64,000 nt of DNA from an uncultured Burkholderiales bacterium (lineage in GTDB: Bacteria; Pseudomonadota; Gammaproteobacteria; Burkholderiales; Burkholderiaceae_C): NCBI GenBank assembly GCA_903886485.1, contig CAISMH010000019.1:1-64000 (forward strand), given 5' to 3'. Below are positions 35,322 through 35,981 of the stretch, one piece after another. Under the pieces are notes generated by a model. The model saw nothing but the letters and a program-made list of their open reading frames with translations, searched no databases and was not told where the DNA came from. How positions within the stretch are numbered: position 1 is the first letter of the stretch; the number at the start of each line of letters is the position of its first letter. The translations under genes and the position numbers were made by a program.

Positions 35322-35927
35322 ATGACCTCGACAGCCCCCGTACCTTCCCATGACCACTACAGCCAGCCCTTGAACTTAGACCACTGGGTCAGTTCTAACG
35401 CGCATCATCTGAAACCACCCGTGGGCAACCAACAGATTTGGAAGAATTCAGATTTGATTTGCACCATCGTAGGCGGCCCCAACCAACGCACCGACTTTCA
35501 TGTCGATCCCTACGAAGAATATTTCCACCAATTCAAAGGCAATGCCTCGGTGTTGATTGCTGACCGCGGCAAGATTGAACGCGTGCACTTGCGCGAAGGC
35601 GATGTTTTCTTACTGCCTGCCTTTGTGCGTCACTCGCCCCAACGCCCCGAAGCGGGCAGTCTCTGCACGGTCATCGAGCGCAGTCGGCCTGCAGGCGTGA
35701 TGGATGCTTTTGAGTGGTATTGCGCCCAATGCGGTGAATTAGTCGCGCGTCGAGAGCTTCAACTTCAAAGCATTGTGGAAGACCTGCCGAAAGCTTTTGC
35801 TTCGTTTTATGACACGAGCGACGCTGACCGCAAATGTTCGCACTGCGGAACGGTTCACGCGGGTCGTGATTGGGCGTCGTGGCATCAACTTTGTGGGCAA
35901 AGTTTCGTGAAAACCCTGATGCCATAA
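35322..35927 (+). CDS. 3-Hydroxyanthranilate 3,4-dioxygenase-like protein
   Basis: A 201-aa cupin that should cleave the ring of 3-hydroxyanthranilate to 2-amino-3-carboxymuconate semialdehyde. The Fe(II) ligands are in [11 protein letters not shown] and a later His in VRHSPQRP. Bacterial members have a C-terminal rubredoxin-like iron site; here it is CAQCGE and CSHCGT, both complete. The product normally goes to a decarboxylase (nbaD) and dehydrogenase (nbaE), but neither is in the window. It is the last gene of the hydroxylase operon, 6 nt after the fused subunit. Confidence 0.85.
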
Positions 35928-35929
35928 TT

Positions 35930-35947
35930 TATTTCAAGATTAAAATT
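35930..35947 (+). promoter_or_regulatory. Second copy of the MarR-type operator before the LIV transporter
   Basis: TATTTCAAGATTAAAATT matches the palindrome at 21438-21455 at 15 of 18 positions, in the same orientation. A -10-like CATAAT (35923-35928) lies one base upstream, the same geometry as at the first site. A separate 12-bp palindrome AAAATTAATTTT (35942-35953) overlaps it. No clear -35 box is visible. Confidence 0.6.
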
Positions 35948-35981
35948 AATTTTGCTTTTTCCTTCAACCAAGAGGCCATCC

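Follow-up and report, generated by a model that had tools for sequence, protein, structure and literature searches.

As shown in Table 1, the window, i.e., the whole stretch of 64,000 nucleotides that was analyzed, carries a degradation operon led by the gene of an ABMO-like protein and, farther downstream, the genes of a LIV-type ABC transporter. Here, ABMO stands for 2-aminobenzoyl-CoA monooxygenase, a type assigned by family with a putative substrate. The degradation operon is followed by a divergent LysR gene and then by an operon (30276–35927) encoding a DapA-like protein, a 3-hydroxyanthranilate dioxygenase family protein, and a molybdenum hydroxylase in which a CoxG domain is fused to the FAD subunit; this middle operon may feed the aminobenzoyl-CoA pathway. 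An inverted repeat, ATTGAACAA-N13-TTGTTCAAT, lies at 30237–30267 between the LysR gene and the middle operon. It is likely a LysR-type site, and if so, the middle operon would be under a control different from that of the two MarR sites, O1 and O2.

Table 1. Positions of the genes, promoter elements, and predicted operators at the locus.
Feature	Position	Strand	Remarks
ABMO operon promoter, TTGACA-N17-GATATT, ending at O1	21409..21437	+	TTGACA-N17 kept in nine relatives
O1, first operator copy	21437..21456	.	18-bp core, TATTTCAATATTGAAATA, perfectly palindromic; score 21.4 bits; conserved in nine related genomes
ABMO-like protein	21486..23840	+	bifunctional salicylyl-CoA 5-hydroxylase/oxidoreductase family (PRK08255)
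Remaining degradation operon	23837..29263	+	SDR, (marR), enoyl-CoA hydratase, acyl-CoA dehydrogenase, benzoate-CoA-ligase family protein, RidA-like protein
MarR-family regulator, presumed reader of O1 and O2	24640..25152	+	Pfam MarR/MarR_2
3-Hydroxyanthranilate 3,4-dioxygenase family protein	35322..35927	+	directly upstream of O2
CATAAT, earlier noted as -10-like	35923..35928	+	end of the last Pro codon (wobble base), TAA stop of the dioxygenase gene, and one further base
O2, second operator copy, TTATTTCAAGATTAAAATTA	35929..35948	.	17.8 bits (ABMO-promoter matrix); 18/18 columns (35929–35946) invariant in ten species
TAAAAT, likely -10 of the LIV promoter, within O2	35941..35946	+	ATGCCA-N16-TAAAAT, invariant in ten species
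LIV-type periplasmic binding protein, first gene downstream of O2	35982..37154	+	Pfam Peripla_BP_6
LIV-type ABC transporter permeases and ATPases	37204..40560	+	
Alpha/beta hydrolase	40553..41482	+	relatives include kynurenine formamidase among others

The ABMO-like protein matched the PRK08255 equivalog with 1349.8 bits against a cut-off of 1078, and the gene content of its operon, with a monooxygenase-oxidoreductase, a CoA ligase, a hydratase, and a dehydrogenase, is that of an aerobic operon of the 2-aminobenzoyl-CoA/salicylyl-CoA type. The same enzyme types, namely CoA ligase, monooxygenase/reductase, hydratase, and dehydrogenase, are found in the 2-aminobenzoyl-CoA (ABMO) clusters of Azoarcus evansii, for which we know of no mapped operator. 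The regulator encoded within the present operon carries the winged helix-turn-helix domain of its family, with Pfam scores of 43.2 bits (MarR_2) and 40.2 bits (MarR), both above the cut-offs.

A palindromic site of about 18–20 bp, O1, lies in the promoter of this marR-carrying operon, and the same site, O2, precedes another target gene. O2 is located in the 54-bp gap between the stop codon of the dioxygenase gene (35925–35927) and the ATG of the binding-protein gene. The initial annotation had described the LIV-side site as 15/18 identical to the palindrome at 21438, which holds exactly for the O2 core TATTTCAAGATTAAAATT (35930–35947) and TATTTCAATATTGAAATA at 21438–21455. O2 is less symmetric than O1, with 6 of its 9 dyad positions paired.

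With up to 3 mismatches allowed, O1 and O2 were the sole matches in the window, where shuffled sequences gave an expectation of 0, and also the sole matches of the pattern search in the Limnohabitans-type genome of 2,487,790 bases, where the reversed-pattern control gave 0. When a looser 19-base consensus was searched genome-wide, only O1 and O2 were found at 0–1 mismatch, and the number of matches at 2–3 mismatches was at the control or background level. Thus, no third operator was found in the genome at 0–1 mismatch of the looser consensus or, with the matrix described below, at more than 8 bits in the window, for which reason a larger regulon within this genome was rejected. Many unrelated copies, which the initial annotation had named as the outcome that would speak against it, did not appear in the genome-wide search; the motif occurs at only two places in 2.49 Mb.

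The conservation of O2 was determined by comparison with related genomes, i.e., those of Limnohabitans-type bacteria. The 18 bp before the binding-protein gene, TTATTTCAAGATTAAAAT, were unchanged in all 10 genomes with a binding protein at least 91% identical. In the alignment of ten species, no invariant run of at least 12 columns was found in the compared stretch other than that in O2. In the 40 columns 3′ of O2, only 3 were invariant, the leader beside O2 was only 50% alike, and the third codon positions of the neighboring genes were 54–62% alike. Since O2 is invariant while the adjacent leader and the third codon positions vary, shared ancestry alone is insufficient to explain its conservation. 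The nine related genomes retain the O1 site with no more than 2 mismatches, always behind TTGACA-N17 and with variable flanks. Three congeners (G040, G011, and G041), which have a homolog of the transporter with a binding protein 60–86% identical and no ABMO gene, showed no O2-type site.

The likeness of O1 and O2 might be attributed to a chance similarity of two AT-rich stretches, as O2 has a high AT content and deviates from the palindrome at 3 positions. However, the genome search at this stringency gave no further match, the site does not vary among ten species, and homologous genes in other genera are preceded by sites of the same kind. Chance similarity was therefore rejected; we regard it as extremely improbable, and the initial annotation had likewise considered it unlikely.

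The promoter elements around the two sites indicate a difference in their arrangement. The initial annotation placed the second site right after a -10-like CATAAT, which is nearly right in position because the hexamer ends one base before the site. Its role as a -10 element was rejected: across the ten species the hexamer reads CATAAT, CCTAAT, CGTAAT, CATAAA, or CGTAAA, so that the second base, which is important in -10 elements, varies between species. The sole promoter-like match near O2 was ATGCCA-N16-TAAAAT, whose -35 element is weak, and the promoter scan found no good -35 element before O2 in the Limnohabitans-type sequence. TAAAAT aligns with the TAAACT of TTGACA-N16-TAAACT in the LIV promoters of other genera, and it appears a likelier -10 element of the LIV gene than CATAAT. 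O2 thus probably covers the LIV -10 element, whereas O1 adjoins its -10 element on the downstream side. A small hairpin, TTTGCGTTTTCGCAGA, lies within the spacer of the ABMO promoter (21418–21433) and is not kept in relatives.

Because the LIV -35 element is weak, O2 could act as a roadblock that stops transcripts running on from the dioxygenase operon. In the extreme form of this idea, O2 would be a real MarR site without a promoter of its own, halting transcripts from the molybdenum-hydroxylase/dioxygenase operon. This is consistent with an upstream co-directional gene only 54 bp away, the lack of a good -35 element at the Limnohabitans O2, and the variability of CATAAT. However, the orthologous site in other genera lies within the clear TTGACA-N16-TAAACT promoter, and the TAAAAT of O2 is invariant in ten species and scored as promoter-like. 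We therefore consider the absence of a promoter at O2 unlikely, and an operator overlapping a LIV promoter remains the preferred reading.

A symmetric (palindromic) matrix of 20 bases was learned from 54 ABMO promoters only, giving the consensus ATAGTTTAAGCTTAAACTAT. In the window, O1 gave the highest score with this matrix and O2 (35929) the second highest, and the next place scored 7.9 bits. The matrix was also applied to 80 loci, 1.40 Mb in all, that surround homologs of the binding-protein gene, and there 60 places scored at least 14 bits. Sorted by position, as counted from the listed matches, 45 of the 60 lie upstream of the binding-protein gene, 14 mark a single equivalent position in Pandoraea, roughly 8 kb downstream, and the remaining one precedes the start of a neighboring gene that is itself binding-protein-like in appearance. 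The promoter-by-promoter comparison covered 150 bases upstream of the start; the Pandoraea and L186 sites, which are further away, were seen in the scan of the full loci.

In Polaromonas and others, the ABMO and LIV promoters have one diverged form of the operator, AGTTTANNNCTAAAC, in common. In G181 and G384 (L169, Polaromonas sp. YR568), the ABMO promoter carries TTAGTTTAAACCTAAACAAT and the LIV promoter TAAGTTTATATCTAAACTAA. The parallel drift of the ABMO and LIV sites is the strongest sign that a single regulator would read both. Despite the presence of MarR and ABMO, the matrix comparison gave no clear site at the LIV gene in six genomes (G381, G394, G399, G401, G403, and G404), and the site is weak in G380 and G393. 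Operators differ even among MarR proteins 66–70% identical to the one encoded here.

Two further sets of sites were observed. In Pandoraea, a strong match to the motif, ATATTTCAAAATTGAACAAT, scores 21.1 bits at L190:18181, and 13 other loci have a match at the corresponding place, some 8 kb beyond the binding-protein gene on its downstream side; at L190 the match is located upstream of a gene of unknown function, near a TetR gene. It is possibly a further member of the regulon, or a site of a different regulator with a similar motif. In five ABMO promoters (L111, L112, L113, L114, and L115, from G038, G029, G074, G018, and G034, respectively), a different palindrome, TTTAGTTGACAACTAAA, overlaps the -35 element, which indicates that the operator has moved within the promoter. 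The MarR proteins of these congeners are more distant, being 47–49% identical where measured.

As to the protein that reads O2, we consider it highly likely, on the evidence of these comparisons, that O2 serves as an operator for the MarR-family repressor of 24640–25152, and together with O1 it would couple uptake to degradation. The presence of marR was checked in a draw of 61 genomes and in 25 further genomes, which cover part of the ten-species alignment; marR is close to ABMO in most genomes looked at, and a MarR relative is present in 23 of the 25 further transporter-bearing genomes. The site could instead belong to the same regulon and be read by another regulator, such as another MarR or the LysR encoded at 29277, as the evidence concerns the motif, i.e., predicted binding, and two genomes from small assemblies (G385 and G388) carry the site with no MarR or ABMO match found. 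We judge this quite improbable, because marR itself lies in the operon behind O1 and near ABMO elsewhere, and because the genome yielded just one other MarR relative, a distant one (E 2e-5). LysR as the reader was rejected, since the intergenic region of its own gene has a different inverted repeat. The MarR encoded at 24640–25152 thus remains the favored reader of both sites.

Taken together, LIV uptake and ABMO degradation very probably form one MarR regulon. The proposal of the initial annotation, in which a second operator before the LIV transporter brings uptake and degradation into one regulon, draws support from the genome-wide uniqueness of the site, from the 18/18 invariant columns against 3/40 in the adjacent leader, and from the independent recovery of O2 with the ABMO-only matrix along with like sites that precede homologous LIV genes of other genera. 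Binding by the MarR protein, repression, the inducer, and the transported substrate are what we infer beyond these observations. In the most likely mechanism, by analogy with IadR and other MarR regulators that govern aromatic degradation, a MarR dimer represses both promoters and an aromatic ligand releases it. Without the inducer, a dimer on O1, just downstream of TTGACA-N17-GATATT, would repress the degradation operon including marR itself, and a dimer on O2 would lie over the likely -10 element of the LIV promoter, where it may additionally stop transcription continuing from the dioxygenase gene. Uptake and degradation would be turned on together once an aromatic acid or its CoA thioester freed the repressor.

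The closest precedents differ from this regulon in several respects. In the Variovorax auxin (iad) locus, a local MarR repressor, IadR (MarR_73), occupies a site ahead of the degradation genes until the substrate releases it, and the pathway ends in anthranilic acid (PMC9613470), which is a plausible substrate of the present ABMO-type operon. Like IadR as described there (PMC9613470), the present MarR is local and a presumed repressor of an aromatic-compound degradation locus. However, it is only remotely related, matching the Variovorax structure 7kfo at E ~4e-4, and the gene set differs. Close kinship to auxin regulators of the IadR/IacR type was not found, as other MarR structures match as well as 7kfo or better. 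The portions of the iad report considered here describe no transporter operator (PMC9613470), whereas one is predicted at the present locus. In Betaproteobacteria, a single regulator, BoxR, was predicted to control both a putative ABC importer and an operon for aromatic-CoA degradation (PMC6449761), and the present regulon likewise joins the two under one predicted regulator; unlike the present MarR, BoxR controls benzoate (box) genes, and that work does not deal with MarR regulators or the ABMO pathway. One repressor for uptake and breakdown is an ordinary, well-known bacterial design. This particular MarR-ABMO-LIV regulon is apparently undescribed in the literature searched, which took in few subscription papers.

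The hints on the transported compound are the kynurenine-formamidase-like hydrolase encoded behind the transporter and, in Pandoraea, a neighboring dioxygenase gene and a gene resembling aminocarboxymuconate-semialdehyde decarboxylase (first residues only, by eye). A broader reading, on which our judgment is evenly balanced, is that a MarR regulon widespread in Burkholderiales, occurring in Limnohabitans, Rhodoferax, Polaromonas, Rubrivivax, Pandoraea, and others, links the aminobenzoyl-CoA pathway to LIV-type import of compounds of the tryptophan/kynurenine or anthranilate type, with the operator drifting in step at both promoters. If this is true, the in-step drift would constitute a natural series for the co-evolution of a repressor and its site. 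The operator motif can be used for annotating homologous transporters in other Burkholderiales, and a LIV-type importer of common freshwater bacteria would be tied to an aminobenzoyl-CoA-type pathway, by which the substrate of the importer becomes testable.
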